The notes beneath the pieces are model-generated. The model saw only the letters and a program-made list of their open reading frames with translations. It was not told the DNA's origin and did not search any database. DNA of 64,000 nt from Diplocarpon mali (taxonomy: Eukaryota; Ascomycota; Leotiomycetes; Helotiales; Drepanopezizaceae). The translations under genes and the position numbers were made by a program. Of the stretch, positions 4,051-29,371 are shown one piece after another; positions within the stretch are counted from its first letter, which is position 1; each line of letters begins with the position of its first letter. The stretch spans positions 496,001 through 560,000 of the forward strand of contig JAENRP010000001.1 in assembly GCA_024741835.1 (NCBI GenBank), read 5' to 3'.

Positions 4051-5430
4051 ATGGCTTCGAGCAATAGGAGCCTCGCGCAAACGCGTATTCTGAAGGTTCA
4101 TAATGGGAGTCTAGGAAGTTTCAGGGATACTAAGACCCTTGAGACATGGGAATTGCCTACGGTCACTAAGGAGCTGGAGCCTCTGCGAGAAGCTGCAAAG
4201 GAGCTGCGAGGAGGAAGTACGCCAGTCGGATTCCCTACCGAGACTGTTTACGGGCTCGGCGCAGATGCGACGAGGAGTGATGCAGTGAAGGGGATTTACA
4301 AGGCGAAGGGCAGGCCGTCAGACAATCCTCTCATAATTCACATCTGCGATCTCACGATGTTGCGAAGCCTGCTGGGGCAAGGGGAAGAAACAAACAGGGA
4401 TGTGATTGCGGATCCTATACCAGCAATCTACAAACCTCTCATTGAGAAATTTTGGCCCGGACCTCTCACGATTCTTCTCTTAAACTCGAAGCCCAGCAAA
4501 CTGGCTCCGGAGGTCACAGCTGGCCTCCCAACCTTCGGCGCGCGAATGCCTGATTCTCCTCTGGCTTTGTCTTTGATACATCTCGCAGGTGTCCCACTCG
4601 CTGCTCCCTCCGCGAACGCGTCTACGAAACCGTCCCCAACAACTGCTGCACACGTGATGAACGACTTGAACGGCAAGATCCACATCATACTTGATGGTGG
4701 TCCATGTCTCGTTGGTGTGGAGAGTACCGTCGTCGATGGTCTATGCGATCCGCCCGTTGTCCTTCGACCTGGTGGAGTGAGCATCGACCGAATCCGTGAG
4801 TGTGAGGGCTGGGCTGGAGTTGTGGAAGGCTACAAGGACGCTAGTGAGATTGGAGCCAGTGCCCCCAGAGCTCCAGGCATGAAGTATAAACACTACAGCC
4901 CCAAGGCCAGAGTTGTGCTCTACGAAGCTCCTGTGAAAGATGGGCAGCGCCAAAATGGAATCCCACTTGAGGAGGTATGGCGTGTCGTAGATGCACAGGA
5001 ACAGCGTATCTCGCAGCTGGGATACGAGAAGATAGACCATTTCCCAAAGATCGGGATCGTGAGCACAAGGACATGGACTACTTGGGCAGGCTTCGGTAAC
5101 GCAGAACGAGGCGGCACAGGTGGTGTCAAAAGCAACTTTACCCGAGTAAAGTCTTCACAGGGCATGGATTCGAGTGATTACTTCTTCGCTGTGCAAGAAG
5201 GGGAGCTTTACGGGAATTCCTCGAGCAGAAAGCTGGGGCATGTCATCGAGGTGTCATTGGGCATTGAAACGAAAGATATTGCTCGTGGACTATTCTCCGC
5301 TTTGCGACATCTAGATCAGCGGGAGGTTGATGTGATATATGTCGAGGGCGTAGAAGACGAGGGTGGTATTGCTGCGGCGGTGATGAACAGGCTTCGGAAG
5401 GCCGCTACGAAAATACTGGGATATGAATAA
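4051..5430 (+). CDS. SUA5: Threonylcarbamoyl-AMP synthase (Sua5/YrdC/YwlC)
   Basis: This single exon encodes 459 aa from the ATG at 4051; the frame extends 21 nt upstream but only to a TTG. Sua5 makes threonylcarbamoyl-adenylate from threonine, bicarbonate and ATP, the first step of the universal t6A37 modification of ANN-decoding tRNAs. The N-terminal YrdC domain shows the signature FPTETVYGLGAD (residues 61-72) and the nucleotide-binding KAKGRPSDNP (84-93), which gives the conserved K-x-R-x-S-x-N pattern. GARMPDSPLA, APSANAS and ESTVVDG are further family landmarks. After a linker (about 285-330) a C-terminal Sua5 domain follows (KIGIVSTRTW to the end), distinguishing it from YrdC-only proteins. 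The length is close to yeast Sua5. A mitochondrial pool is possible but no clear presequence is visible. Confidence 0.92.
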   Translation: MASSNRSLAQTRILKVHNGSLGSFRDTKTLETWELPTVTKELEPLREAAKELRGGSTPVGFPTETVYGLGADATRSDAVKGIYKAKGRPSDNPLIIHICDLTMLRSLLGQGEETNRDVIADPIPAIYKPLIEKFWPGPLTILLLNSKPSKLAPEVTAGLPTFGARMPDSPLALSLIHLAGVPLAAPSANASTKPSPTTAAHVMNDLNGKIHIILDGGPCLVGVESTVVDGLCDPPVVLRPGGVSIDRIRECEGWAGVVEGYKDASEIGASAPRAPGMKYKHYSPKARVVLYEAPVKDGQRQNGIPLEEVWRVVDAQEQRISQLGYEKIDHFPKIGIVSTRTWTTWAGFGNAERGGTGGVKSNFTRVKSSQGMDSSDYFFAVQEGELYGNSSSRKLGHVIEVSLGIETKDIARGLFSALRHLDQREVDVIYVEGVEDEGGIAAAVMNRLRKAATKILGYE

Positions 5431-8899: not shown

Positions 8900-9320
8900 A
8901 TATTGTTATTATCTTCGGCTGCCCTTAGCCTCCTTAAGTCTCAAAAGCTTAAAGGCGCAAAGGACTATAGCTAATAGAGGAATAAGGTTTTGAACTTTGC
9001 AAAGTCAAACGCTTTAACTATATATCTTTATATAAAAGCTAGAATATATGCTCCACTTAAGGTTGATTTATAGGACCGTTCTATTACAAATGAGGAAAGG
9101 GATAATTAAGTTAAATGGGAAGCTAAGGAATCTTAGATAAAGCTTGCTATTACACTTAATTGCAAACCAGGCCTACTAGCTTATATAGAAGGCGATAAAT
9201 CTGCCTTAGATATATGGAAAGCTCTTTAAAAATAGTACGAAGGATCTGGAATAGTACTTAAATATAACGCTATCTAGACCTACGTTACTATTAAATATAA
9301 CGACTTCAACTCACTTAAAG
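8900..9320 (+). pseudogene. Copia A gag, 5' part, broken by Gypsy insertion
   Basis: The translation with RIP stops reads through KGAKDYS, NKVLNFAKSNALTIYL, VKWEAKES and ALDIWKAL, typical of Copia Gag (UBN2-like) proteins. It ends at the Gypsy target site (FNSLK). The frame resumes after the Gypsy at 22652 with AYVIAFRLSITKLK. Several TAA/TAG codons sit where CAA/CAG or TGG are expected. Confidence 0.7.
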
Positions 9321-9575
9321 TGTTACGGCCGCATCATATGCACGGTTATATCATATATCGGTCAGGTGCACGAAGTCAGGTGTATACTAAGGTAGCGAGG
9401 TGGCTGGATCATGTGCACGCTAGTAAAGCACCTGTACTTATTCTAAAGGAGCTCTATTAAAGACTCTCTCTTCTTCTTTATCTTTTCTTCTCAATTATAT
9501 AGCATACCTCTTAAAGTAATATAGTTAGCGTTATTCAATTCTTGCCTTCTATACGCTTAAGAGCAAGTTATAATA
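9321..9575 (+). repeat. Gypsy left LTR (255 bp)
   Basis: It begins TGTTACGGCCGC and ends GTTATAATA. It pairs with 22392-22646, and differences are transitions. Confidence 0.92.
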
Positions 9576-10577
9576 TAAGAAAAGATCAACTCAACCTTTG
9601 CTAAGAAGCTTAATATTTACTACCTTTAGAATCGTTATTTCGAACTACCTTAAGTAACTTGATCTCTCGATCTCGACTTCTATTATAAACTGCCCTAAGC
9701 AACTCGTACGTAGCGCTTAGATCTTACTAATCTAGTTTTTAAAGAAAGCTGAAAAACGACCTTCGAATATAAGATTAGCTCGTTTTTTCGACCCCTTACC
9801 TCCTCTATTTCGCAAATAGAAATTCACCTTTAATTTCAATTCGAAAAAATTTTTTATTCACTATACCTTCGCTTCGCTAGTATAAGCTGCTACTTAAAGC
9901 AGTATAATAACTTTTCTCTTTTTGATTTTCTCCCTCCCTTACAAATACTCTATACTACTCTTTTTTATAGACCTTATACTTATTAATAATATACTTATTA
10001 ACAACTCTCCTTATACTCTTTAAAGCTCCTCCCTCCTTCCTTCGAATACCTTAAATATAACTCGACTCCTTAAAGACCCCTCCTTGCGAATAAGTTATCG
10101 ACCTTTGCTATACTTCCCGTCGACCTATACTCGTCGACTCTGCCTTATACTCTTCGAAGTTCCTTACTCCTTCCTTCAAAACACTTAGGTATAAAACTAA
10201 GGGACCTATACCTATATATATATATAAAGACTTAGCTAGCCTTAATAGGTTATACTATACCGTTTAGGACTAGGTCAACCTTAGTAGAGTGATAAGCTTT
10301 AGACCCTACTTCCTTGGATTTGCATAGCTACCTCCTTAAGCAACCTTATTGCAACTCCTAATTAGTAAAGAGACGTAATCCCGAAGTAAAACCTTCTTTC
10401 TTAAGATCTATAAACCTATAATACCTTAATATATACTCTACTAAAAGGCTTTAAGAACGTATATAGCTCCGCCTATACTAATCTTCCCCCTTTTGAATAG
10501 GTCACTATTTAGCATTAGGTCCCTTTAGACTAAACCAGATAATATAAGGAGAGTTAGTACTTAGGACCTCTAATCTT

Positions 10578-11174
10578 ATGCCACTTAAGAGAAGTGAAAG
10601 GTTAATCGTACCTCTACTAGGCCATACTGCTACTAGTTCTCTAGGCCTTACTGCCAACCCCAGTCCTAAAGATATTCCTCCTCCTAAGCCTACTTAGGAA
10701 GCTACCTCCCCTAGTATAGATTTTACTCCTAGGCCTAGCCTACGAGTAGATTCTCGAAATACCCTATTACCGTCGATTGAAGTTAAAGAAGAAGATATAC
10801 TCTCCCTAATAATATCTACCCTTACTATATCAGCCCCTCTCTTTTCAGCTGCCTAGTAGGCCGAAATCGCGAACCTTATTAGCGCTGCTATAGCCGCCGC
10901 TTTTTAAAATAATACTACTGCCCCTTCCTCTTTAAGTGCTAGTCCTTAGAACACTCGGTCCTTTACCGCCGACTTACTACTTCCCTTAGACTACTACCTT
11001 TTGATTATCCGACCTTTAGTCTTAGCCGTCGACCCCTATTAGATCAAATACCCTTAAACCTATTTTAATAACTACTAAGGCGAAATCACTTATAACGCTT
11101 AAAAGATAGCTATAAAGGTATTTATTTAAAAGTACTTAGGCAACTTCACTTTAGAAGAGGACTAGATTACTATC
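10578..11174 (+). pseudogene. Gypsy gag, N-terminal part, interrupted by Copia B
   Basis: An ATG at 10578 opens a frame (MPLKRSERLIVPLL) that continues with RIP stops to the Copia B target site. It includes the peptide DFTPRPSLRVDS encoded by a copy of the 23-nt palindrome. The C-terminal end here (YLGNFTLEED) belongs to the retrotransposon Gag core, which resumes at 17388 (YIIGKA, YIDPIF). Confidence 0.75.
10725..10747 (+). repeat. 23-nt palindromic motif, Gypsy gag copy
   Basis: It starts ACTCCTAGGCC and ends CTACGAGT. It is read in frame as TPRPSLRV within Gypsy gag, between a Pro-rich N-terminus and the Gag core. Confidence 0.8.
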
Positions 11175-11179
11175 TACTT

Positions 11180-11374
11180 TATTAAGATGGGTGATATAGC
11201 TATCACTCCGATGTATTATTATATGACCCTATTGCTTAGTCAGTAGGATATTGATACGTATATAGCTATAGGGAAGAAAGGGGTAACCTTCCTTCCTTAA
11301 CTCTTACTAATATATCGACCATCGACCTTTAGAAGTTTCCTATACCTACTGCGCCGACTTATTTAAGCTTAATA
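11180..11374 (+). repeat. Copia B left LTR (195 bp)
   Basis: It contains the palindrome GTGATATAGCTATCAC near its 5' end and pairs with 17188-17382. TSD TACTT lies just outside. Confidence 0.92.
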
Positions 11375-13201
11375 GGTTATAAGCCCTAGATAGACTGATA
11401 ATAGATTATTAACTTCCCTTAGAAAGCACTTGCGCTGTAACTATTAATAGGAAGTTGAATAAGACTTATAATAAGAGGCGAGCAATCGGCGAGTAGGAGG
11501 TATAATTCCCTATTTAGCCAACCTATATTGTAAGAGGTGTGATTCCTTACTTTATAACCCTTTAGTACTATAAGAGGTATAATTCCTTGCTTTACTATGT
11601 TTTATAAGAGGTATGATTCCTTATATTATAGCTTAAAAAAACCCTTTTCGATAAGAGGACTTCCTCCCTATTTAATACTTCTATAATACCTACTATTTAA
11701 TCATTTCAACTTTTCGATAGAAGGAGTGCCTTTAACTATTTAATTTATTTGATTTTAAACGCAATTCTATTCGAAACGGCAATGGCTTCCGATTCCAATT
11801 GAAATACTAGACCTAGAGACCTCTAACTCTCTTAAAAGAACTAGCAATAATAGTTCAACGATTTAGAGCTTTACTTTAAAAGCAAAGGCATTAAAATAGC
11901 AATTTAAAAGACACTTATTAAATATGTAAGAATAACCTCTTATACTCTCTCTACTAATTCGTCTACTTCTACTTTAATAGTTAATACAACTGCTAAGGAT
12001 TTGCCAAATATACTAAATAAGCTTAGCTTAAGAGCTTTAATAGATAATAATTAAGAATCCTAAAGGCAGATTTTAAATATAGAAAAGGAGAAGGAGTATA
12101 GGCTAGCCTTAGCTAAATATAAGCTTAAGATTAATAAAGGTTTAAGCGATAAAGACCGAGATTTTATTTGAATTTATAATAATGCGAAGATAAGATAGGA
12201 TACTTTAAAGGTAAAATACTTTTAAACAATTGCCCTTAATACCTAATATCTATTATAGCAGATTACTTTATTTTAATATAAAAAAGATAAAGATAGTAAG
12301 GATATAGATATAAATATAAACTCTACCTAATCTATACTATATAAAGTAAGAAGGAGAGTAAGAGCCGCAGATCCTAAGATAGCTATAACTTTTAAGGAAA
12401 CTTAGCTTTTTAGTTTCCTATTTAATAGCCTCCTTCTTAAGTTTGCTATTATAAAACAATCTCTTCTTATCCAACCTAACCTTAAGATCTATAAGAAGAT
12501 CGACCTCCTTTAAACTATTAAGTAAGACCTTAAAGGATGCTTTAAATCGGCAAATGCTATATTATAAGGTAATAATAAGCTTAAAAAGAGGAAGAAGCGT
12601 AGGACGAGCCCTTAAGCTTATTAGGGATACTACTTCTATAATAGTACTTATAATATTACTAATTATAAAGTTAAAAGGCAATTAATTAATATAGTCGCTA
12701 GCTTTAATATTAAGAAGCAATCGAAGTAGAAGTTAAGAAGCAAACTGCCCTTATCCTACTAAAGGCTATAATTACTAAGGAAAGGCAAAGGAAAAGGCTA
12801 TTTAATTAAAACTTTAATAGATACTTTTAATAATAATAGTAGGTTATCTAAACTTAAATCTACTTCTAATAATTTAGATAATAATTATAATAAAGATGCT
12901 TATATCTTAAAAGCCGATCTTTATAAGATCTTTAAATCCAACTAATATAGTCATACTAATTATATAATATATATAACTAATAAACCCTACCTATTTAAAG
13001 GCCCGCTTATTAAAATAAAAAGGCGCTCTATTAAAATTAATAGTAGAAAGTTATATATAGACTTAATAAGTATAGTAGAGATAAATATTGCTAGCGTTTC
13101 TTTCCTTTTATAAAATATTTTCCTTATACTTAGCTTAGGTATTAATCTTTTATTTAACTATAAGATCTATATAAAGTTAAATTATATAAGAGTTTTTAAT
13201 A

Positions 13202-13216
13202 NNNNNNNNNNNNNNN
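13202..13216. other. Assembly gap (15 N)
   Basis: Fifteen undetermined bases lie inside Copia B, just upstream of the 23-nt motif array. The repeat may have caused the gap. Confidence 0.99.
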
Positions 13217-13319
13217 TAATTAATTTATATAATTTATAAATAATAATTATAAAATGATCTTTAAGGCTAAAATCAAAGATAGACTTTATATTATCTTAAA
13301 GGTAATATTATAGAAATTG

Positions 13320-13789
13320 ACTCTTAAGCTAGACTTATAAATGGATTCCTTTAAGGAAAGTGCACTCTTCGCCCTAATATAATTAAATAAGGATAAGGAG
13401 AATAGATAGACTCTTAAGCTAGGATCGCAAGTAAAATTCGCAAAAATGACTCTTAAGCTAAGACTATAAGTAGATTGCAAAGTATCCTTAAAGGTGACTC
13501 TTAAGCTAAAATCATAAGTGAATTTAATAGAAATAACTCTTAGGCTAAGATTGCAAGTGAATTCTATAAATTTATTAATAACGACTCTTAAGCTAGGATT
13601 GTAAGTGAAATTCGCAGAAATGACTCTTAGGCTAGGACTATAAGTGAAATTCGCAAATTCGTTAAAGATAACTCCTAAGCTAGGACTGCAAGTAGATCTT
13701 ACTATTTCTAAGAAATCGACTCTTAAGCTAGGACTGCGAGTAAATCTTACGGTTTTATTAAAAACGACTCTTAAGCCAGGCTTATAATT
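13320..13789 (+). repeat. Tandem array of ten degenerate 23-nt palindromic motifs
   Basis: Motif starts are at 13320, 13410, 13449, 13497, 13536, 13584, 13623, 13671, 13719 and 13767. Intervals are 90, 39, 48, 39, 48, 39, 48, 48 and 48, all multiples of three and largely alternating 39/48. Each unit reads ACTCTTAAGCTAGGACTGCAAGT with RIP-type variation, encoding TLKLGLQV-like peptides in one frame. It lies between the protease and integrase parts of Copia B, where a linker would be expected. Confidence 0.88.
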
Positions 13790-16700
13790 GGAAAACGGTA
13801 AACCTTAAACTACTATTACTAGTCCTTTTTAGCCGCCGATAATAAAGTATCGATTAATAATAGGCTACTAAAGCTATTAGAAGCCAAAAGCCTATTAAAG
13901 TATTAGCTAATATATAAAAAATTTATATATTTAAGACTAAAGAAATTAAAGGGCTTGCATAAGGTCTTAACCCTAAAACAGAAGATCTAAGTACTAAAGG
14001 ATCGCCTAGTATACTGAATTTACAAGTTAATAAAGCTTTAAAATCAGATACAAATTAAGCTTAATCTATAGAAAGATTCAATATTAGTACTAATATCTAT
14101 TAATACTACTAGACTATTTATAACTTTAATTAAAGGAAATAATTAGTTTTCTTAAATAGTAAATAACTCTACTTAGCAGATATAGACCATTTGCGCTAAG
14201 ACCAAATCTAAGCTTATAAAAAAGCTAGAAATTTAGAAAGTGATAGAGGAACGCTAGACCTAGTTAAAGCTAATAGCTATTAGGTCTAATAACGCATTAG
14301 AGATTAAGGCAAAGCTTAATAAATAGGTAAAATAAGGAGTTTATTATAAACTAATTATAATATATAAAGGTTCTTACTAAAATGGCATCGCTAAGCGAAG
14401 CATCTAATAAGTAGAGACTAACTATTGCGCTCTATTATAAGATGCCGACCTACTATTAGAATTCTAGGACCTTGCGGTTAAGGTAAATATATACTTGCAA
14501 AATAGAATAGGTAGTAGACTAATAGTTAATAGCATTTGAATATTACTATATAAGGCATATTTCGAATAGAAACTAAGCCTAGACTATATCTGCGTCTTTA
14601 AAAGCGTCTACTACTCTTATATTAGCCCAAAGTCTTAGCCTATAGGTATAAAGAGCAAAAAGCTAATAGACTAAGGTAGAGAGTATATATTTATTAAGTA
14701 TATTAAATAGATAATAAAGTAATAAATAGTATATACGCTAGATCTAAGGTAAGTAATTATATCCTTAGTAGTTGAGTTTAATAAATCTTGAAATAAAGGA
14801 GAGCTATCCTTAAAGCTCTATATACCTAAAGATTCGCAAGGTATACTACTTAATAGTAATACTATTAAGCCGAACTAATAACCCCTTTCTCTTAACTTAG
14901 GCATATTAAGCGCACCTGCTAATCGACGACCTACTAATCGCCTAAAGGCCGAATAGACTATTCCTATCGTCTGCAAACTACTTAAAGTATAGAATAACTT
15001 CGATATTATTATCCCTTTAGTTAAAGCACTTAAGGTAAAGGATATTCCTAAAATAGGTATAAGTAATAATAAGCCTCTACTATTAGAAAGCGGTTCCTTA
15101 GATAATAAGCCTATAGAACCTATAGCCGAACCTACGTCTTTAAAGAGGAATAGAGACCTAAAACTAAAAGATACCTTAAATAAACGTAAGTCTAAGTGTA
15201 TCTAAGCTATAATAGCATATAAGATCTATAAGCTCGAACTTCAATAGAGCTTTAATAAAGATAATACATTCTTAGCCGCTAAGGGAATAATGAAAATCTC
15301 TCTTCTAAAGATGTATAATAAAGCTATCAACGATCTAAAGAATAGAGTAGTATAAAGTAAGGCAATCTAAGAGGAGATAAGCTTTCTTACTATAAATGGT
15401 ATATAAATAGAGGAACCGACGCTAAAGGATATGAACTTAGTATTAATAAAGTGGGTCTTTATAATCAAGATATATGCAAATAGAACCTTAGAGCGTTATA
15501 AGGCAAGGCTTATAGCTAAGGGCTTCTCTTAATAGTATAAAGAAGACTACTTCAATATATTTGCGCTAATAGTTCGTATAAATACCCTTTGCATATTTAT
15601 AGTAATAGTAGCCGCTAAAGACCTTAAATGCAAATAGTATAATATTAAAAATGCATTTACTAAAGCAATTATAAAGGAACGGATTTTTCTCTCCTGACCT
15701 AATAGTATTCTTATACGCGCTGGCCACTCTCTTTATATACTCTGCAGTATCTATAGGCTTAAATAATCAACTTATAATTAAAACTTCTTATATAGCTCTA
15801 CTTTAATAGAAATGGGATTTGTTTAAAGCCTAGCTAACCCTTATCTATTTACCTATACTAAGCGTAGAATCAAGTTACTATTATATATTAATAATATTGC
15901 TATAGCTGCGAAAACAACTACTTAATTAGATTAGTTCTTTATAATAATTCGGAAACGTTTTAATATTAAGGATCTAAAGGGAATTCATAAGATCCTTAGC
16001 ATCTGCGTTATAAGGAACCGCTCTACTTAAGAACTCTAGTTAAATTAAGAGCAGTATATTAAGAAGATCCTAAACTGAATAGGACTCTCTACTTATACTC
16101 CCAACTTTAAGCTAAAGCATACTCTAATTAAAGGAAAGTATAATAAGTTAGAGCCTGCTAATAAAAATAAGTAAAGAGAAGATCTAAAGAAGTACTAATA
16201 AGATATTAAAGCGATTATATATACTATAGTATATATAAGACTAGATATTGCCTTTATTACTAAGCAACTTAATCAGAACTTAAAGGATCTAACGATTTGA
16301 TATAAGAATATAGTCAAGCGATTTAAAAGGTACCTTCAATTGATAATTATATAAAAGGTAAGATACAGACTAACGAAATATATAAGCGTAAAGCTTAAGG
16401 TATATACTAATTCCAATTAAGCAAATATAAAAGGTTGGAAAAGTATATTTAAAAGCGTAGTAGTACTATATAGCAGACCTATATTATAAGGAAGTAGGAA
16501 GCAGAAATCAGTAGCTACTATAAGCACTAAGGCCAAATATATATTAATATTATTAAATTGCAAATAAGGATTATAAATCGCTTAAGTTTTAAAAGATATA
16601 GGTTTCGCTAAGTATATTAAATAAGATAGGAACTATATTAATCTTTAAGTAGATAATATAAGGGTAATTGCACTTATAAAGAATCCATACTTATATAAGC

Positions 16701-16960
16701 GATCGAAATATATTAATATTACCTACTACTTTATCTATAACCTTATTATAAAGAATAAGTTATTAATTACTTATATCTTAACCAATCGAATAGTAGCAGA
16801 TGGATTTATAAAGCTACTAAAGACAGTTGCAAAGTTTAAAGCATTTAAAGATATGCTAAGGTTATAAAAGATAGTAAGGGCTTAGCAGGCTTAAGGACAA
16901 CTCCTAGGCCCGCCCTATAAGTTAGGTTATATAGTCTTATAAAAGAAAGTTTTTAAATCG

Positions 16961-17049
16961 ACTCTTAGGCTTAGACTGCAAGTTAAGTCATATAGTCTTA
17001 TAAAGGAATATCTTTTAAGAAATTTGACTCTTAGTCCTGCTTTATAAGT
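16961..17049 (+). repeat. Two 23-nt motif copies at the 3' end of Copia B
   Basis: Copies begin at 16961 and 17027, 66 nt apart, downstream of the RNase H domain and before the right LTR. Both are decayed (ACTCTTAGGCTTAGAC, ACTCTTAGTCCTGC). Confidence 0.75.
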
Positions 17050-17187
17050 AAGATTAGTGATTTTAATAGAGGTTACTATTAATTGATTGTTTTTAATTTA
17101 AAGAGATACTTAAGAATTGGATTAGCGCAAAAGGATAGTTATTATTTTCCTAACTGCAAGTCAATCGGAGTAAGGTCTAAGTAAGGG

Positions 17188-17382
17188 TATTAAGATAGGT
17201 AATATAGCTATCACTCTAATATATTATCATATAACCCTACTGCTTAATCAGTAGGATATTAATACGTATATAGCTATAAGGAAGAAAGGGGTAACCTTCC
17301 TTCCTTAACTCTTACCAATATATCGACCATCGACCTCTAGAAGTTTCCTATACCTACTGCGCCGACTCACTTAAGCTTAATA
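17188..17382 (+). repeat. Copia B right LTR (195 bp)
   Basis: It is the same length as the left LTR and differs by transitions. It ends AAGCTTAATA and is followed by the TSD TACTT. Confidence 0.92.
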
Positions 17383-17387
17383 TACTT

Positions 17388-18150
17388 TAAGTATATAATA
17401 GGTAAAGCTTAGAACTTGATCCTATAATATATAGATCCTATCTTTACTAATAAGTTTATATGTGCTGCTAATATCCTTAGGGTCTTAAATCAGAGGTTCT
17501 TTAACTATAATTATATTCAATCCGCTAAGCTTAAATATAATAAGCTAACTATAGGTTTATTATTATATAATAAGTTCCGATTTAAGTTCGTTACCTTTGC
17601 TATAGCTAATAAGATCGACTAATCTCGCTAGTTCGATAACATTTATAAAAAGGTCTCCTTAGCCTTAAAGAACGACTTTTAAGTAGAGAAGTATAAAATA
17701 AATAATAATTATACTACTTTAGATAAGTTCTTAGCTATTGCAAACCGCAAGGCTTATAATATTAAGTAAGAAGAAGCCTATAACGCTTAATAAGTCGCCC
17801 TTGCTATCGCGTTCTTCCCTTTAAAGGACCGCGTCCTTAGCATATTAAAAAGGGAGTTATAGAGACCTACTATTATAGCTACCTCCCTAGCCCCTTGCAC
17901 TTGTTCCTCTTTACCGGCGGCCTATTGAGAAGGGTCTGCCAGCCTAAAGCCGTCGTCTAGTCTCTACTATAATTGCAAAGTCCCTAATTACTATATAATA
18001 GACTGCCTTAAGCTAAAGAAGCAGGGCGAGTTTATAGTAGCTAAAGTTGAGATAGAAAACGACCTACTATTAGGAAACTGCTAAGCTATAGCAAAGACTC
18101 TTACTATAGTATAGGTTATAATTTATAAAAAGACTTAGATTTTGATTCTT
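17388..18150 (+). pseudogene. Gypsy gag, C-terminal part with zinc-knuckle region
   Basis: The Gag core continues from the Copia B site (FICAANILRVLNQRFF, KFRFKFVTFAIANK). It ends near YYNCKVPNYYIIDC, where CxxC-type knuckle spacing is still visible, followed by LKLKKQGEF. It contains multiple RIP stops. Confidence 0.7.
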
Positions 18151-18719
18151 ACCTATTAATAGGCGGCCGCCAGTTCTTAATTCCTATAGAACTAGCTTAA
18201 AATAGATTATTTATTAAAACAGTTGCCTATATTAATAGCAGAGCTAATATTTTTAGTATTATTAAAATATCTTTAATATACTAGCTTTCTTAAAGACTTA
18301 AGGTGAAGTTTATTAAGCTGCTTAAACCGATTACTCCTATTAGCTATAATAGCCTTAAAGGAGAAACCATTCAATTTGCCGTCTTACTTACCCTTATAAT
18401 TAATAGGCGATAAATAAACTTCCTTTTTTTAATTATAAGCTTAGGAGTAACCGACATTTTAATCGGTAGGAAGTTCCTAAAGCACTATAACCTTAAATAG
18501 TCCTATAAAAGGGGGAAAAATAGTATCTCTTAGCCTAAGGATATGCCTACTATCCCTTACTTTAATTAACGCGTACTAATCGATCTCTTATAATTAATAA
18601 GACCTCTAATAGCCTAATAAGACGTCAATCGTCAAGCAGCTATAATAGACGCTGAGGATAAAGACTTAAGAATGGCCTAAGCCTAGCTCTCGGTACTAGC
18701 AAGCAATAACTCGAATCCT

Positions 18720-18787
18720 ACTCCTAGTCCCAGCCTGCGAGTGAAAACTGCAAATTCGAATCCTACTCCTAGTCCTAGCCCGCGAGT
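18720..18787 (+). repeat. Two 23-nt palindromic motifs between Gypsy protease and RT
   Basis: Copies start at 18720 and 18765, 45 nt apart, and both are in frame. The second encodes TPSPSPRV. They sit in the spacer between protease and RT, ahead of a hydrophobic-basic stretch (18830-18990). Confidence 0.82.
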
Positions 18788-20666
18788 GGCCTCTTATAGA
18801 CTTAGGGATAGCAGTTTCTTTAAAGACTTAAAAAAAGATCTGAACTATATAAAGAAGGCCTTGCTAAGAGTACTAGACCCCTTGCTTCCTCTTTTAGTAA
18901 AGAGGAACGCTCCTTTAAAGCCGGCTTACCAAATCAGCCTGATCTTAGCCTTAGTAATCGGCGCCCTCTACTACCGCTTTACAATTAAGGTAAAATAAGC
19001 TATATAAACTTAAGAACTAGCACCTAAAGAGTTTATATTCGTAAGCTCTATTTACAATCTAGATTAAGAAATCAATCGCTAAGAAGTCAATCGCCAAGAA
19101 TCGGTTAAGCAAGCTGAAATTAGCTCCCTTAGCCTTAGTTTGGCATTGCAAGCCAAATATAAGAGTAATAATAAGCTAATAGATTAAAAGCTCTTACCTT
19201 AATATATTAAATTTAAAAACGTTTTCAATCGCTAGGCCTTTAATCAACTGCTGGAACCTAGGCTAAGGGTAGATTATAAAATCGAGCTAATAGGTAAGAA
19301 CAACTTAATAATCAAACCCTTTTGCCGCCTTACCGACGAATAGCTCTTAAAAGTCAAGAGCTATATTCTTAAGAACTTATATAAAGGATTTATCGAAGCT
19401 TTAAGTTCTCCTTAAGCAGCCCTAATCCTCTTTATTAGAAAAGCTAATAGCTCCTTACGTCTATGCGTTGACTACTGGAAACTAAATGCCTTAACGAAGA
19501 AAGACCCCTACCTAATTCCCTTTATCGATAAGATAATAGTACGCATATCGAAAGCTTGTATTTTTATAAAAATCGATATATAATAAGCCTTCTACCGTAT
19601 CTGCATATCAGCTAATACTAAGGACCTAACTACCTTTCGCATATATTACAAGACCTATAAATATAAGGTTTTACTATTCGGACTAATAAATAGGCCTGCT
19701 ACCTTTTAAAGGTTTATTAATAATATTCTCCTTAAGTACCTCGACGATTTCTACTCTACTTACTTAAATAATATTCTAATCTATTTAGAAAACTCCTTTA
19801 ACTATGAGATCTATATTAAGAAGATCTTAAGAATTCTCTAATATTATAACCTGTAAGTAGATATTAAGAAAAGCGAGTTTGGGGTTATTAAGACTAGGTT
19901 CCTAAGGTTTATTATCAGAGTTTATAAAATTGAGGTAGACCCTAATAAGGTCTTAATCATTTAAGAGTAGAAATACGCTAAGAACGTATATAGCGTATAG
20001 AGCTTCTTAAGGTTTTGTAACTTCTATCGAAGGTTTATTTAAGGCTATAGTCGCATCTGCCGACCTTTAATAGCTCTTATAGGAAATGTTCCTTTTGATT
20101 TTAATAACGCTTATAAAGAAGCTTAGGAAGCTTTGCGCTTAAGCCTTTAAACGACTCCGATTTTATACTATTATTACCTTTAGAGGCAGATAAGGCTTAA
20201 GACCAATGCCTCTGATAGCGTAGTCGCTAGCGTACTCTTTTAACTTTAAAAAGACGATAACTACTACTTAATTAGGTACTTCTCAAAGATAATAAATAAC
20301 GCCGAGCTGAATTACCCTATTTATAATAAGGAGCTCTTAGCGATTTTTAAATCGTTCTACTAGTATAAGGCAGAGCTACTTAAGGCCTAGAAAACAGTAT
20401 ATATATATATAAATCATAAAGCCCTTAAGTACTTTATAATAACTAAGGACTTAATAGCCCGGCAGGCTTGCTAAGCGGAGTTCTTTGCTGATTTTAACTT
20501 CCTTATTATATACCGAATAGGCATAACGAATACGCTGGCTGATATACTCTTACATTAAGACTAGAAGCTAACCCCTCTTAAGGCTAGGAAACGAGCTTTA
20601 TACTACTAGCAGCTCTTATCTAATGATAAGCTCTCTATAGAAGTACTCGCTATTAGAGGCGTTTCC

Positions 20667-20734
20667 ACTCCTAGGCCCGGCCTACGAGTAACTTTAGTAC
20701 AGATCAATTCCACTCCTAGGCCTAGCCTACGAGT
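20667..20734 (+). repeat. Two 23-nt palindromic motifs between Gypsy RNase H and integrase
   Basis: Copies start at 20667 (ACTCCTAGGCCCGGCC) and 20712 (ACTCCTAGGCCTAGCC), again exactly 45 nt apart. They are the best-preserved pair in the window. Confidence 0.85.
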
Positions 20735-22391
20735 AACGATTGTGCCTATCGCGCTAATAGAGGCACCTGCCGACCTAATGTCTAAGGTCGAATATAATAT
20801 AGCGAACTACTACGTTATTAATAAGGTCATTTAAGCTAATAAGACCTCCTTTAAGCTATAGAAGTTCTGAGATAAGGCGTAAAGCTATAGCCTCGACTAT
20901 AAACTTAGCTAAGGCAAACTCTTCTTTTAAGGTAAACTTATTATACTATCCTAACCTTTTAAACTGCAAATAGCCCTAATTTATTATATGTATAAGTAAC
21001 CTTGCGTCGCATACGCTGGAATCGGGAAAACAAGGCTTCTAGTAGGAAGAAAATACTACTAGAAAAGCCTTAATAGCGATATTAGCACTTATATTTAAAA
21101 CTATTATTATTTAAGAATAAAAGCTTATTATAATAAGACCCTAGGTTTCCTATAACCCTTACCAATTCCTAAATAAGCTTACTAATACTTAATAATAGAT
21201 TTTATAAAGCTTCTGCTTAACGAACTCGGTTATAATTTTACCTTTATAATTATTAATAGGTTATTAAAAAAGGCAGTTTCGATTCTATATTATAATTCGA
21301 TCGATGTAAAAGGCCTTATAAAGTTGTTTTTAATTCATTAGATACGCCATTTTAGTATACTTGACTTAATTCTATTAGATAAGGGCGCTTAATTCGTCTC
21401 TTCCTTTTAAAAAGAGCTCTATTAAATACTAGGTATAAAGGTTAAGCTAACTATAGCTTATAATCCTAATATCGACAGCTAAACTGAGATTATAAACTAG
21501 TACTTAAAATAATACCTTAAACCGTTCTACTTATATTATTAAGATAATTAGAGTCGTCTCTTACCTTTAATAGATATTGCCTAATTAACCTTACCTTACA
21601 AATCGCTAGGGCAAATTTCCCCTTTCTAAGTGCTAAACAGCTATAAAGCTCGCTTCTCTTAGAATTTGATTAACCTAAAGCCTTTACAAATAGCAACTAA
21701 GAGAGTAAATCGTAAAATAGCACTCCGCATAGCTATTAGAGCTTAAAAAGTAGTCTAATTCGCTTAATCGTCTCTCTAAGTATAATAAGCTAAAATGAAA
21801 CGGCTTGCAGATCTCTACCGCTAGCCAGTTGATTAGACTATAAGAGATAATATGCTAATTAGTATTAAAAATTGGAAATTAGACCGGCCGAGCCAAAAGC
21901 TCTCTAATAAGTAGTACGGCCTAGTAAAATTGCTAGAAAAGCTAAGAGAAAGCTAGAAGCTATAATTGCCTAATTCGCTGCGTTCAATCTACCTTATATT
22001 CTACTCCTACTTACTGCGGAAATACGTTTCTAACCCTCTGCTAGGCTAAGCTTAGGAACCTCTTACCCTAATTAAGATACTACTAGAATAAGAAGAGTAA
22101 GAGATAGAAGATATAATTGGATCTTATATTTAAGCTAAGAAGCTCGAATATCAGATTAAGTAAAAGGGAGCTAATAAAGACCTCGAATGGTACCTATGCT
22201 CTAACGCTATAATAGCACCGCATGCTATTCGAAATTTCCATTTAAAGAACCTTTAAGCTAAAGGGCTACTAAGGGCGCTAGCAAGCTAATTGAGGTTATA
22301 TAATAATAGAGTTAACGATTATAGGGACCTAGAGGATAATACGCCTATAGATATAATTGCGCAGGCGCAGTTTTTCAAAAGGGGGAGGTAG

Positions 22392-22646
22392 TATTACGGC
22401 CGCATTATATATACGGTTATATCATATATCAGTTAGGTATACGAAGTCAGGTGTACGCTAAGGTAGTAAGGTGGCTGGATCACGTGTATGCTAGTAAAGC
22501 ACCTGTACTTATTCTAAAGGAGCTTTACTAAAGACTCTCTCTTCTTCTTCATCTTTTCTTCTTAATTATATAGCGTACCTCTTGAGGTAATACAGTTAGC
22601 GTCATTCAATTCTCGCCTTCTGTACGCTCGAGAGCAAGTCGTAATA
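22392..22646 (+). repeat. Gypsy right LTR (255 bp)
   Basis: It is preceded by the polypurine tract at about 22377-22391, ends CGTAATA, and is followed by the TSD CAAAG. Confidence 0.92.
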
Positions 22647-23298
22647 CAAAGCTTACGTCATCGCCTTTAGGCTTTCAATCACTAAATTAAAAGCTCTCGA
22701 CTCTGCCCCTCCCTCTTATTAGCATTCTATTATATTTATTATTAGCTGTTTTAATAGATGGCCTATTTAAGCAGATCGATAATATTCTAACCTTCGCTTA
22801 GCTATAGCAGCTGGACGAAAATCAAAGATTACGCTTAAAGCTTTTATTAAAGATATTATTAATAAAGCTCGAGCCTTATAGAGTTTAAAAATGAACGGAA
22901 CCGTTTTATATAGTAATAAATCGGCTAGTAAGTCGCATTCCTCTAACTATAAGAAGTTAGAAAATAAGAAAGGTTTCAAAGACTTAAAGAAGAGCACCTC
23001 TAGGAATACTACTACCTTCTCCCCTAACTCCCCCTATCCTTATTGCAAGCAATTAGAGCTATACTATAAGGCAGAAGATTGCTTCGCAATTAATAAATCG
23101 AAGAGAGAGGCTTAGGAAAAGGACTTAAGGAAGAAGTACGTATTCTATCACTTTAAAGGCAAGGACGATAAGTCCTTATTATTATTATTATTATCAAAAG
23201 GCAAGAAGCCTTTTAAGAAGACTTAGAAGGAAGACGAAGAGTCAGATAATGACCTCTTTAAGCATACTATGCTATTACTAACCCTAGGGCCAATTCTC

Positions 23299-23375
23299 AC
23301 TCGCAAGCCGGGCCTAGGACTCAATTCAGACTCCTCCCTAAGGCCAATTTCCACTCGCAAGCCAGGCCTAAGACT
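23299..23375 (-). repeat. Two 23-nt motifs in reverse orientation in Copia A
   Basis: Copies at 23299-23321 and 23353-23375 (54 nt apart) read ACTCGCAAGCC...AGGACT on the + strand, the reverse complement of the usual form. They remain in frame with Copia A gag-pol, giving LTRKPGLGL and STRKPGLRL. Confidence 0.82.
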
Positions 23376-24765
23376 TAGTTCTTCTACCTCCTACTTCTTA
23401 TTAAAATTAAGGAATCGTTAGCTATATAATATAAGTGCTAATAAGTACATCTCTAATAATCTCTTTAAGTTCACTTCTTATACTACTTAAGACAATCTAC
23501 CCTCCTTAAGTATAGTTAATAGATCTATTCAACCTCTTAGCATTAGCACTTATAAAGTCAACGCACTTAAATCCAATAGAAAGGTATATATTCTTAAGTT
23601 AATTAATACTCTTTATATACCTTAATTACCTATTTGCCTATACTTAGGTAGCAAACTTAATAAAATCAAAGGCTTCTATCGAAATAGCAAGCTATTCCTA
23701 TCTAATAAAAAGGAAATTTACACTATCGATAATAATATATATATTAATAAGGAATAGCCTTCTACTAACTCCTTTGGTTATATAAGTGGATATGCTCTCT
23801 TAGCTGCTATTAAGAATAGACCTCTTAATATTAAGCTCTAGTACTATCGATTAGGCTATGCTAGCTTATAAACGGTTAGAAAGACCCAATCTACTATTAC
23901 TAATATACAAATTAAGGAAATAAAATCAAAGAAGACGCGAATTTGCGCCTCTTATAAGAAAGGCAGACCTCTCTAATACGTTAATAAACGTTTAGCTCGC
24001 CTTTAACCTATAAAGGCACTTAACGAGCTATATATCGACGTAGTTCATTTAAAGCCAACTAGTCTTAATAGCTACAAATACGCTTCTATCTTCACTTATG
24101 CAGCTATAATAGCTAGATAGGAATAGACCTATATAAACAAATCTAACGCCTTTAAGGTAAATAAGAAGATAATCAGCCTCTTATAAACCTAATATAATTG
24201 TATAATTAAGCAATAAAGAACTAATAGAAGCAAAGAGTACTCTCTTATACAAATATAAATACTTATAGAAAACCTTAGTATAATTTTAAAAGAATTTACT
24301 CTATATACATTAGAATAAGATAGCAGATCGGAACGATCAATTCGTATACTAATAGAAAAGTTGCGAATAGCTATAATTGACTAAAATATCCCCTCCTTTC
24401 TCTAGCCTTACCTTCTTCTTTCGATAATATATATTACTAATCTTACTGCCTTTAATATTCTAAATAGTAAGACTCTATATAAGGTCTTTTAGGATAATAT
24501 CAAGCCTAATAAGCCTTATACTCCTTTTATTAAGTATCTTTAAGTACTAGGCTATTGCGTCTATATACTAATTGAGAAAGAAAGGCAAACTTAAAGCAAT
24601 AAACTCGCTTTAAGAGTAAAGGTAAGTACTCTTATCGGATTTAATAGTAGAAGTATCTATTAGATTTATATACTATTATAAATAGGTGAAAAGATTATTT
24701 AATCATTTTATATTTAATTTGATAAAGACGGCCTAATTATAAAGCCGCAATTAAGGGGTAATTTG

Positions 24766-24881
24766 ACTCCTAGTCCGGAACCGCAAGTTAATTCTCACTC
24801 TTACGATTTTACTCCTAGGCTAGGACTGCGAGTTAATACTAACTCTTATAATGATTTTACTCTTAGGCTAGGACTAGGAGT
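24766..24881 (+). repeat. Three 23-nt motifs between Copia A integrase and RT
   Basis: Copies start at 24766, 24811 and 24859 (spacings 45 and 48) and encode TPSPEPQV, TPRLGLRV and TLRLGLGV in one frame, separated by Asn/Ser-rich linkers. The position is a typical inter-domain linker of Copia pol. Confidence 0.85.
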
Positions 24882-26763
24882 CAATTCTGATTTAAAAGAA
24901 GCTAATAAAGCTAAGCTTCTAACTTTAAGAAAGAGAGGAAGACCTCTTAGTTTAAAGAACAAGGCTTACCCTTAGCCTTTTGAGAAGAGAGCTACTTGCT
25001 CTACTGCTCTTAGATTCAAAGCTAATAACTCTAATAATAAAGAAGCCTATTTAAGCGCCTTCTATATGGCCTTACTTAACTCTCCTTACTTAAATAACCC
25101 GAAAACAGTCGAATAAGCCCTCTCTTATACTAATGCCGATAAATAGTAATCTATAATTAACTTTAAGTATAATTCCCTCGCTTATAAGAATATATAGGTA
25201 GTAGTAAAACGCTTAGAACTCTTTAAAGACAATAGAGTACTTAAATCGAGGCTTATCTTTAAAACCAAAAGAGACTAAAATAGGGAAATCTCCTAATAGA
25301 AGGTCAGATTCGTTATATAAGGCTATATATAATAATAAGGTTAAGATTACAATTAGACATTTGCTAGAGTTTGCAAATCTGCGATTTAAAAGATCGCAAT
25401 TGCGCTTATAGCGCTATATAACTTTAAGCTAGATCAGTTTAATATTAAGATAGCTTTCCTTAATTTAGAAGCTGACTTTAATATTTATATCAAGTTACCT
25501 CTTAGATATACTTAAGTTAAGGTCGTTCTTTTACCTTAAGACTACTGTCTTAAGCTTCTTAAGGCCTTATATAGCTTAAAGCAATCTTTATAACTATAGT
25601 AAGAAAAGCTATAGTCTGAGCTATAAAAGCTCGATTTTCAACTTTTTAATACTAATAATTACATATATATTAACCGCGCCTCTCGGATTCTTATTATTAC
25701 CTATATTAACGACTTCCTTATAGTAGTAAAGAAGGGTAATATATATAATAAGTTTAAGAGAGATCTTTGCAACCTCTTTAAGATTATAAGTAGTAAACCG
25801 GCTAACTACTTCTTAAAAGTACGTATAGTTAGAGATCGATAAAATAGGACGATCTCATTTTATTAAAACGCCTATATTAATAAGGTTCTTAAACGTTTTT
25901 ATATAACTAATTATAAAAGCGTACTAACGCCTTTTACTAATAGCTATAAAGTTCATATAGTCAAATTTAAAGGCTAAGCCACTCTATAGGAAGTGAAGCT
26001 ATACTAGAAGATCTATAGTTCTTTATAGTACCTTACGTACTATATGCATTAAGATATACTATACTATTGCTCTATTCTTAGCAAATTCCTTACTAACCCT
26101 TTGCTATAATATATAGCGGCTTTAAAACGAGTTTTATAATACTTGCAAGGAACGCGATTCTATTATACTACCTTTAGAAGTAAAACAACTAACCTAAAGC
26201 TTTAGAAATTGCATAGCTACTACGATTCTAATTAAGCAGGTAATAAAGGAAGTAGAGCCTTTTATTCTAAGGCCGTCTTCTTCCTTAATAATAGGGTAAT
26301 TACCGCCTCCTTTAAGCGATAAACTATTATCGCTCTCTTATCTATAGAAGTAGAGTATATCGCTATATGCAAATTCGCATAAGAGGCCTTTTAAATACGC
26401 TAAGTACTTAAGGAAATAGGCTATGCTAGCGACGATGCTACTAAAGTCGAGATGATCTGCGATAACTAGAAAGCCCTTTATCTTACCGAAAATCCCGAAT
26501 ATTATTAAAGAATAAAGCATATTAATATTAAGTTCTATTATATTTAATAAGAGCTTCAGAAAGGCTATTTAAGCCTCTAGTATACGAATACCAAAGACAA
26601 TGCCGCTAATAGATTAACTAAGAGCTTAAATAGCTCTAACTACGCCGCTTTTATTAAATTGTTAAATATAAAGGTTCTGCACCTCGATTAAGGGGTGATT
26701 TTTTTTTTATACCTCTATTATAAGGTGATTTTTTTTTACACTTCTATTAAGGGGTGATTTTTT

Positions 26764-26786
26764 ACTCCTGGGCCAGGCCCGCGAGT
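26764..26786 (+). repeat. 23-nt motif downstream of Copia A RNase H
   Basis: This is a GC-rich, little-mutated copy (ACTCCTGGGCCAGG...GCGAGT). It follows three ~45-nt repeats, each containing the word GGTGATTTTTTT (26693-26762), in the untranslated tail before the right LTR. Confidence 0.78.
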
Positions 26787-27605: not shown

Positions 27606-27885
27606 TACTTCGTATAGGGTGTAATAATCTGAGGTTCCCTGTCTATGCATACTAGATTCTTGGCAATGTTGCTTTTATTAAATTCCTTAGTATTTTATAT
27701 AGCCACCTTTTGCGTCAATTACTACTTTATATCTATTTAGCATTTTCCTAATCAAATCTCTAATTATCTCAACTGTTATTAATTCCTAAGCTTCAATTAC
27801 CCCCTATCGAAACCCCTGTATAAAAGAAAGTTCTAGTATAGTATATAAATAGAAAACCTCAGATTATTTCCCTATGGACTAAGTA
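27606..27885 (-). mobile_element. 280-bp Tc1/mariner-derived MITE, copy 1
   Basis: The element is bounded by TA and has ~55-bp terminal inverted repeats (TACTTCGTATAGGG...AATAATCTGAGGTT at the left; the complement ...CCTCAGATTATTTCCC...AAGTA at the right). The minus strand retains the C-terminal tail of a Tc1/mariner transposase at its centre (a KAV-I-A-x-GG pattern before a stop), which identifies the parent superfamily. It is the same length as the copy at 29092. Confidence 0.8.
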
Positions 27886-28200: not shown

Positions 28201-28657
28201 TACTTAGTACATGCCCGAAATAATGTACAATTGCTGTCTGTGCGTAGTTCTACCGGTTTCCATTAACAGGGCTCATATACAGGGGGTATAGCTAATGATT
28301 TATCTATAACGATTCGCCGCTTTTTGCATTAAAAATCAACGCTTTCAATATGGATTCTTCATTTAGTATACCGACTCCAAAGACACCTACAAAACAGACC
28401 TCTCGTGACGAACGAGTACGCTATTAGACTCTTTATTTTAATGCCGGTTGGACTCAAGATCAGATCGCCCTTTAATTGAACCTTACTCGATGTCTAGTAT
28501 AATACGCTTTAATCAGGGTAATGCTAGAGAGATGTAAAGCTGTGATCGCAGCAGGAGGAGGCCATACAAAATATTAAGGAAATTATAAAAGTAGCATTGC
28601 CAAGTATCTAGTGTGCACGGCTTAGAATTGTACATTATTTACCCATAGTACGAAGTA
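28201..28657 (+). mobile_element. 457-bp internally deleted Tc1/mariner element
   Basis: It begins TACTTAGTACATG...AAATAATGTACAATT and ends with the inverted counterpart (AATTGTACATTATTT...GTACGAAGTA), with TA at both ends. Its single reading frame joins the transposase N-terminus to its C-terminal tail. The right arm forms a near-perfect palindrome with the adjacent inverted element. Confidence 0.72.
28350..28577 (+). pseudogene. Tc1/mariner transposase remnant, internal deletion
   Basis: An ATG at 28350 opens MDSSFSIPTPKTPTKQ, followed by the helix-turn-helix start LYFNAGWTQDQIAL. It then passes straight to the C-terminal tail ERCKAVIAAGGGHTKY and a stop, all in one 75-codon frame. The catalytic DDE core is missing. 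Three in-frame stops (TAG/TAA at likely CAG/CAA positions) suggest RIP after the deletion. Confidence 0.75.
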
Positions 28658-28888
28658 TTCCACAATTCTAGACCGTGCACTCTAGATACTTGGCAATGCT
28701 GCTTTTATTCTTTTCTCTAGTATTTTGTATACAATCTATAGTAAAAGTGTTGATTTCTAGTGTAAAAAGCGGCGAGTTAATATTATTATATCATTGGTAG
28801 TACCCCTTGATCAAGGCCCCTGTTAGTAGAAACCTCTAGAATGGTGCACAGACTATGAATGTGGAATATTTTCAACATGTACCAAGTA
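28658..28888 (-). mobile_element. Inverted relative of the 457-bp element, tail to tail
   Basis: Read on the minus strand it has the same left end (TACTTGGTACATG...), the same AACTCGCCGCTTTTT-like block (left element: GATTCGCCGCTTTTT) and the same GCATTGCCAAGTATCTAG 3' end as 28201-28657, but lacks most of the coding part. Together they form a large inverted repeat centred at about 28650. Confidence 0.65.
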
Positions 28889-29091: not shown

Positions 29092-29371
29092 TACTTCGTA
29101 CAGGGCGTAATAATCTGAGGTTCCCTGTCTGTGCACACTAGATTCTTGGCAATGCTGCTTTTATTAAATTCCTTAGCATTTTATATAGCCACCTTTTGCG
29201 TTAATCACTGCTTTATATCTATTTGGCATTTCCTTAATCAAATATCTAATTATCTCAACTGTTATTGATTCCTAAGCTTCAAGTACCCCCTATCGAAACC
29301 CCTGCACAAAAGAAAGTTCTAGTATAGCGCACAGATAGAAAACCTCAGATTATTTCGCCATGGACTAAGTA
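29092..29371 (-). mobile_element. 280-bp Tc1/mariner-derived MITE, copy 2
   Basis: It has the same length, orientation, TIRs and internal transposase tail as copy 1 at 27606, with more CpA/TpG retained (GTGTGCACACTAG versus a TA-richer copy 1). The minus-strand frame ends MPNRYKAVINAKGGYIKC then stop. TA flanks both ends. Confidence 0.82.

Follow-up and report, generated by a model that had tools for sequence, protein, structure and literature searches.

The mobile GC clusters of yeast mitochondria, GC42 among them, consist of GC-rich palindromes flanked by short direct repeats, and their mechanism is unsettled (PMC4478555). Rickettsia palindromic elements are palindromic units that lie in frame within coding sequence and are tolerated as an extra peptide (PMC10969869). 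MUSE1 of Podospora (11 bp) and the PstI palindromes of Neurospora mitochondria, which are ultra-short or GC-rich palindromic repeats, are regarded as mobile (PMC7218506). Palindromic DNA units in coding sequence form tandem in-frame repeats in PARCELs (PMC2996958), and inverted repeats occur inside coding sequence in Nematomorpha mitochondria (PMC6649704). Here we describe a 23-nucleotide (nt) GC-rich palindrome from the fungus Diplocarpon mali, found in a 64,000-nt stretch (hereafter the window; assembly GCA_024741835.1, contig JAENRP010000001.1, positions 496,001 to 560,000) that contains Gypsy and Copia long terminal repeat (LTR) retrotransposons. In D. coronariae, Copia elements make up about 20% and Ty3 elements 6% of a published assembly (PMC11527701); a term search of the 2024 D. 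coronariae genome paper did not find "palindrom".

The copies share one core, occur in both orientations, at coding and apparently non-coding sites and in recurring contexts, and in one linker the insertions and deletions (indels) keep the reading frame. The explanation we favor, at a probability of about 0.5, is that minute GC-rich palindromes entered the ancestors of LTR retrotransposons, were multiplied by them, and moved in the course of the retroelement cycle.

Form and abundance of the palindrome

We searched the window with the pattern ACTCCTAGGCC-N5-TGCGAGT, allowing ≤3 mismatches, and obtained 17 strand-hits, all between 10.7 and 26.8 kb. Motif-like sequence is present at every coordinate listed by the initial annotation of this DNA, including the ten copies at 13320-13789; one copy, at 16900, had been overlooked. 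Second-order Markov simulations of the window gave 0 strand-hits in each of ten at the same threshold. A genome-wide pattern scan (49.4 Mb, 676 contigs) bore the motif out, with 4588 strand-hits at ≤3 mismatches versus 18 for a reversed-pattern control, and 250 versus 0 for the exact pattern; reversed controls were likewise 0 in the other genome-wide motif scans. The motif is real, and its excess over chance is overwhelming. Because it is nearly its own complement, 4588 strand-hits correspond to between ~2,300 and 4,600 places. In the exact search the gap was allowed to vary from 3 to 12 bases, yet the match is 23 nt long throughout among the matches listed.

In its least mutated form, ACTC[C/G]CGGGCC-N-GGCCCG[C/G]GAGT, the motif is an almost perfect palindrome of 11+1+11 nt in which few pairs mismatch. 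The least mutated copies (for example in L042 and L047) read ACTCCCGGGCCNGGCCCGCGAGT, and those at other sites ACTCGCGGGCCNGGCTCGCGAGT; genome-wide, 127 places were counted within 1 mismatch. ACTC and the final AGT do not vary among representatives of 21 sites, and positions -1 and +1 carry no information, which sets the core at 23 nt. Folded as predicted hairpins, two unmutated forms reach -12.7 and -16.0 kcal/mol and a linker form -10.6 kcal/mol. No known RNA family matched positions 9000-29500 at E 0.1. Covariation was dropped as a proof of RNA pairing, since pairs 5:19 and 9:15 often mismatch and since repeat-induced point mutation (RIP) by itself yields paired transitions.

RIP has left its signature in the genome: in ten Copia A copies, C-to-T changes reach 42% and 35% at CpA (one value per strand) and 21% and 17% at CpG, as against 4-7% at CpC and CpT. 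All four palindrome forms tested lack CpA and TpG, so RIP largely spares the palindrome, which helps to make it conspicuous as a GC island in decayed elements. By itself the absence is unremarkable, as both dinucleotides are also missing from 12% of sequences shuffled from the same letters. It calls for general caution: CpA-free sequence left by RIP forms conspicuous islands in decayed elements.

Retrotransposon contexts and reading frame

Strict flank clustering gave 40 clusters; manual merging of array members and shifted versions reduced these to 21 contexts, with chance rows such as C28, C38, and C39 dropped. A looser, transition-tolerant scan gave chance contexts and was replaced by the stricter clustering. 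Among the copies read, the palindrome lies in about 21 recurring contexts, which belong to at least four groups of LTR retrotransposons, and it occurs there in both orientations. With 40 further loci, 242 copies fall under the 21 labels (reference copies included), 20 rows outside them are for the most part chance hits, variants of contexts already described, or rows whose flanks are truncated, and at most one context, the possible L143, was gained. All 50 of the least mutated places listed, out of the 127, share flanks with another locus (purine/pyrimidine identity ≥0.85 over both sides). Because of these two results, copy number is mainly due to retrotransposon amplification of few founding sites, and the palindrome does not look like an element that spreads by itself through the genome. 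In our judgment, about 18 of the founding sites have flanks that are not related.

Insertion into host genes in the manner of Rickettsia palindromic elements found no support in a small sample: about 98 kb of other DNA (ten 5-kb stretches placed irrespective of the motif, plus the window outside the cluster, which contains some other repeats) held 0 copies at ≤3 mismatches. One chance-like hit appeared in the ten stretches at 4 mismatches (L034). At the lowest density (46 per Mb), ~4.5 hits would be expected in 98 kb (Poisson P ~0.01, optimistic owing to clustering). In the places read, copies were seen solely in retroelement-like repeated contexts. An unclassified repeated element (L024 and L079; contexts E_C20, E_C24, E_C25, and E_C26) has at least four palindrome sites.

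In the window, Gypsy 1 (9319..22649, plus strand) is bounded by a 260-nt direct repeat (88%; 9319-9578 / 22390-22649). Nested inside it is Copia B (11180..17391, plus strand), with a 204-nt direct repeat (91%; 11180-11383 / 17188-17391), and Copia A comes after Gypsy 1. Both repeats are taken as LTRs, and neither of these presumed LTR pairs carries a palindrome copy. Just three stop-to-stop frames of ≥90 aa occur in 9-29 kb; since the elements are so decayed, "in frame" here means the ancestral frame. Where no E-value is given, the domain label rests on motifs; for four of the six typed fragments, Pfam gave no match.

Gypsy 1 has a single plus-strand copy in its presumed gag region, nearer the 5' end (10725..10747), with AGATT on each side. 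Two plus-strand copies 45 nt apart (18720..18787) follow the presumed protease, in a piece with no Pfam match; the relatives L074, L077, and L080 have 2 or 3 copies at this site. A further two, also 45 nt apart on the plus strand (20667..20734), follow the presumed RNase H (RT_RNaseH E 0.092 only), and the relative L083 has 3. In Copia B the ten-copy array (13320..13789, plus strand; spacings 90, 39, 48, 39, 48, 39, 48, 48, 48) lies after a Pol_BBD-like region and before a presumed GAG-pre-integrase; the Pol_BBD match in the relative L011 has E 1.7e-4, below cut-off. Three plus-strand copies (16900, 16961, and 17027; 16900..17049) stand directly before the presumed Copia B 3' LTR and therefore presumably in the 3' untranslated region (UTR).

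Copia A has two inverted copies (23299..23375, minus strand, 54 nt apart; relatives L066 and L082) upstream of what we take to be the protease, in a region with no Pfam match. Three plus-strand copies (24766..24881) lie in the linker between integrase and reverse transcriptase, preceded in the relative L042 by an SH3_retrovirus domain (E 1.2e-18). A single plus-strand copy (26764..26786), with GATTT on each side, is located shortly before an AAAGGG/AAGGGG polypurine stretch. It presumably lies outside the open reading frame, in the 3' UTR, because the L042 site follows the stop that ends the RNase H frame and indels there are not multiples of 3. A second Gypsy family, Gypsy 2 (L056), has one copy, with RT_RNaseH (E 2.5e-4, below cut-off) on one side and Integrase_H2C2 (E 2.1e-14) on the other.

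These positions confirm the original observation in part. Spacings are multiples of three in the array and elsewhere and fail to be so at 16900/16961/17027 (61 and 66). Copies do lie between domains and in frame in the linkers, but those at 16900-17049 and 26764 are in presumed 3' UTRs. In Copia A, the copies at 23299 and 23353 have the opposite orientation.

In nine relatives compared with the window, all indels in the Copia A linker are multiples of 3 (6, 9, 15, 24, 27, 45, 48), as are those in the reverse transcriptase-RNase H region (3); in the 3' UTR they include 1, 2, 7, 14, and 17, the longest gaps there including alignment ends. These comparisons all share the window sequence and are not independent. 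Each of the ten aligned Copia A copies has 2 or 3 palindromes in the linker. Because this number varies and spacers within an array are alike, arrays appear to grow by local tandem duplication; spacers differ between arrays. Where the frame can be read, seven of the eight site classes have the same phase (P 0.008 if all phases were equally likely), one class, L096, being judged coding from its open frame alone. The single phase claimed at the outset holds for the presumed translated window copies, but Gypsy 2 (L056, L059, and L060; RNase H-integrase) reads another ("...TRLASPACES..." in L056), so that phase is biased and not fixed. Seven unmutated forms contain no stop codon in any of six frames, so internal stops do not dictate the phase. 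The linker peptide is rich in Gly and Pro (TPGPGPRV, or TRGPGPGV in inverted orientation), and apparently non-coding copies are conserved to the same degree as coding ones. Protein searches, which reach proteins of similar length only, returned three proteins for the Gypsy 1 piece, all D. coronariae fragments.

Other features were noted around these copies. The Copia A integrase-reverse transcriptase linker contains a basic stretch, PRKRGRPPSSKNK (L042:1997-2761), that weakly resembles the model of an RNA-binding region (PF17208; E 0.002, below cut-off). The public D. coronariae gene models PZA11_007750, PZA11_008024, and PZA11_007752 (P0124-P0126), annotated as hypothetical proteins, correspond to the part of Gypsy 1 that follows the presumed protease. 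On the minus strand of L010 (2265-3023), a 253-aa open frame ends in near-repeats of the type LEYTSNTPRILFEY. A 280-nt direct repeat (91%) at 27606-27885 / 29092-29371 of the window, 1.5 kb apart, perhaps represents the LTRs of a short non-autonomous element; between the two lies an inverted pair with 64-nt arms (28577-28716). At 40625-43051 is a PNGase A protein, 99% identical to D. coronariae PZA11_005546 and 80% to D. rosae, which places the host in D. coronariae (Helotiales) or very near it.

Insertion and spread

The flanks of the 21 site representatives are RATTY-like at -6..-2 and +2..+6 (0.3-1.2 bits); farther columns are low, the highest being +18 with 0.52 bits. Flanks are otherwise unrelated for most site pairs, which have the 23-nt core and the RATTY-like flanks in common and no more. 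Exceptions above every null maximum are CopB a/b, E_C24/Y, and two tandem Copia A gag-protease copies. The right flanks of Gypsy 1 18720/20667 score 10.5 (null 95% 9.0, maximum 11.0), and two pairs, including the right flanks of 10725 and the CopB array, reach 9.0 (null 95% 9.0). The ungapped comparison missed ATTAAGGGGTGATTT, which stands upstream of both the Copia A linker and the 3' UTR sites; their downstream flanks are not shared.

Compared as direct repeats, flanks of the same site are more alike than flanks of different sites (2.76 vs 2.2 of 5; p 0.004 in an analysis with 36 length/offset combinations, p 0.007 in a separate test). Compared as inverted repeats they show no significant similarity, and a palindrome extended through the RATTY flanks was rejected for this reason. 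An indication of insertion comes from the Copia A 3' UTR of L051, where a last, occupied unit comes after tandem units of ~29 nt made of ATTAAGGGGTGATTTTTTTTT and ACACCTCT (or a variant). In that unit TGATTTTTT is followed by the palindrome, TGATTTT, and GACTTACTAAGGGG, with TGATTTT on both sides, and its right part aligns to an unoccupied unit with a score of 23.5, reached by 0.5% of shuffles. Our reading is that the unoccupied unit is an empty site inside the element itself and that the target has been repeated around the palindrome, a single case in a low-complexity context. On this one comparison and the weak direct-repeat signal, insertion with target repetition may be regarded as partly shown. 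We do not claim an exact 25-bp unit plus 5-bp duplication (30 bp), given the gaps of 27, 45, and 48 nt that span the middle Copia A motif.

Target repetition would also suit a miniature inverted-repeat transposable element (MITE)-like unit. In such a unit two 11-bp terminal inverted repeats would be fused, and a transposase or integrase acting in trans would move it and duplicate a 5-bp RAWTY target. The RATTY-like blocks, the direct rather than inverted similarity within sites, and the repeats around 10725 and the L051 palindrome all agree with it. Yet the repeats are often inexact (5/5 within small shifts at 4/21 sites vs 8.8% of cross pairs), no copy was found outside retroelement-like repeated contexts though the host is the larger target, and no longer element with these ends turned up, no search having been aimed at one. 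We consider such a unit unlikely. A selected functional site gained or kept by several families, either for a dimeric DNA-binding protein or as an RNA packaging or dimerization hairpin, would explain why the whole 23-nt core is conserved across element families at several sites per element; its CGG-N7-CCG layout resembles fungal Zn2Cys6 binding sites. Position varies between families and includes coding linkers, however, and neither orientation nor linker copy number is constant; nor is there a copy in the window's two presumed LTR pairs, which together make selection for such a site quite unlikely.

Tandem duplication inside clusters is clear, and the flanks shared by CopB a/b and E_C24/Y, those shared upstream only by the Copia A linker and 3' UTR, and the pairs at the null edge could all reflect recombination or gene conversion between elements, the palindrome having once been part of one family and expanded as a minisatellite. 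This was the alternative foreseen by the initial annotation, and it fits few pairs. Repeated conversion tracts are unlikely to leave just the core and RATTY-like flanks in common, as most pairs do, and the copies are not solely tandem with a common spacer, as the single-copy sites 10725 and 26764 and the differing spacers attest; we find this origin improbable. Selection on the peptide, for instance TPGPGPRV as a protease cleavage site or flexible linker at domain boundaries, could account for positions between domains and for the prevailing phase. It is largely refuted by the presumed 3' UTR copies of the same DNA and the inverted copies, which encode another peptide; with Gypsy 2 in another phase, it is very improbable indeed.

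The account we favor, acquisition by retrotransposon ancestors, supports the earlier interpretation in part, in that unrelated elements share a palindromic DNA unit in both orientations, with mostly unmatched flanks, that can be read as a linker peptide. A family of palindromes with the 23-nt core would have entered ancestors of at least four Diplocarpon LTR-retrotransposon groups at ~18-21 places, in both orientations and into AT-rich RAWTY-type flanks. The retrotransposons would then have amplified it to ~2,300-4,600 recognizable places. Copies would persist in 3' UTRs and between polyprotein domains, where a sequence free of stops in all six frames can be tolerated as a Gly/Pro linker, and those in translated linkers would have expanded to arrays by frame-keeping tandem duplication. 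Acquisition and movement between sites probably took place during the retroelement cycle and not through a transposase acting on chromosomes, because host DNA is the larger target and yet copies are seen only in retroelement-like contexts.

Hairpins stall reverse transcriptase and favor template switching. A palindrome hairpin in RNA or cDNA may thus provoke template switches, and the Copia A sites with a shared upstream and an unshared downstream flank fit a switch near the palindrome. More tentatively, and with considerable doubt, we suggest a hairpin parasite of reverse transcription: a non-coding 23-nt palindrome that spreads between retrotransposons by template switching, gains copy number through element amplification, largely escapes RIP for want of CpA, and does the polyprotein no harm because it is stop-free in all frames.

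Several results weigh against acquisition and movement in the retroelement cycle. Pair 5:19 is mismatched in 15/21 sites and pair 9:15 in 8/21, and folding of the decayed array form yields only -2.6 kcal/mol. The direct-repeat signal emerged from a trial of many length/offset combinations and is lost when transitions are tolerated (p 0.51), and the gaps spanning the middle Copia A linker motif have no single size. Duplication relates some sites (CopB a/b, E_C24/Y). No clean empty site was found in a related element or species, and blastn at E 1e-5 found no similarity to Copia A in three Copia copies without the motif (L041, L048, and L052). Three proteins matching the Copia A integrase-reverse transcriptase piece (one named, from Podosphaera aphanis) are without the peptide, but that linker is hypervariable.

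Comparison with known palindromic repeats

No nuclear equivalent was recognized in the open-access literature searched, most subscription papers lying outside it. Among the more distant systems, PARCELs are 75-nt units in amphipathic domains of membrane proteins of bacteria and other microbes, and the coding palindromes of Nematomorpha are up to 284 bp long and gene-specific, with arms that code conserved protein and no single dispersed family. MUSE1 and the PstI palindromes are mitochondrial, and are likened to the Diplocarpon palindrome by description, not by sequence. Of MITE traits, the palindrome is present and a 5-bp duplication is no more than suggested. Like Rickettsia palindromic elements, the palindrome lies inside coding sequence with the frame kept, as the linker indels indicate. 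The Rickettsia elements, however, are about 100-150 bp long and occur in bacterial genes and intergenic DNA; here the unit is 23 nt, has so far been seen in retrotransposon-like contexts only, and forms arrays by tandem duplication.

The palindrome appears to work most like mitochondrial GC clusters, while belonging neither to these nor to the Rickettsia elements. It shares with GC clusters a GC-rich palindromic form, AT-rich surroundings, and many copies; of short flanking direct repeats, a further GC-cluster trait, it shows no more than the similarity described above, which is lost when transitions are tolerated. GC clusters differ in being mitochondrial, with a main family of 42 nt and another sequence, whereas the Diplocarpon unit is nuclear, 23 nt long, carried by LTR retrotransposons, and partly translated. 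The assembly searched yielded no COX1, so the palindrome scans speak for nuclear DNA; the copies read come from nuclear contigs that carry LTR elements. If the hairpin parasite is real, mitochondrial GC clusters would have in it their first nuclear counterpart known to us, and ultra-short palindromes could be passengers of nuclear retrotransposons that seed linker peptides in polyproteins. With copies, arrays, and non-coding controls in one genome, the movement of GC-cluster-like palindromes becomes testable.

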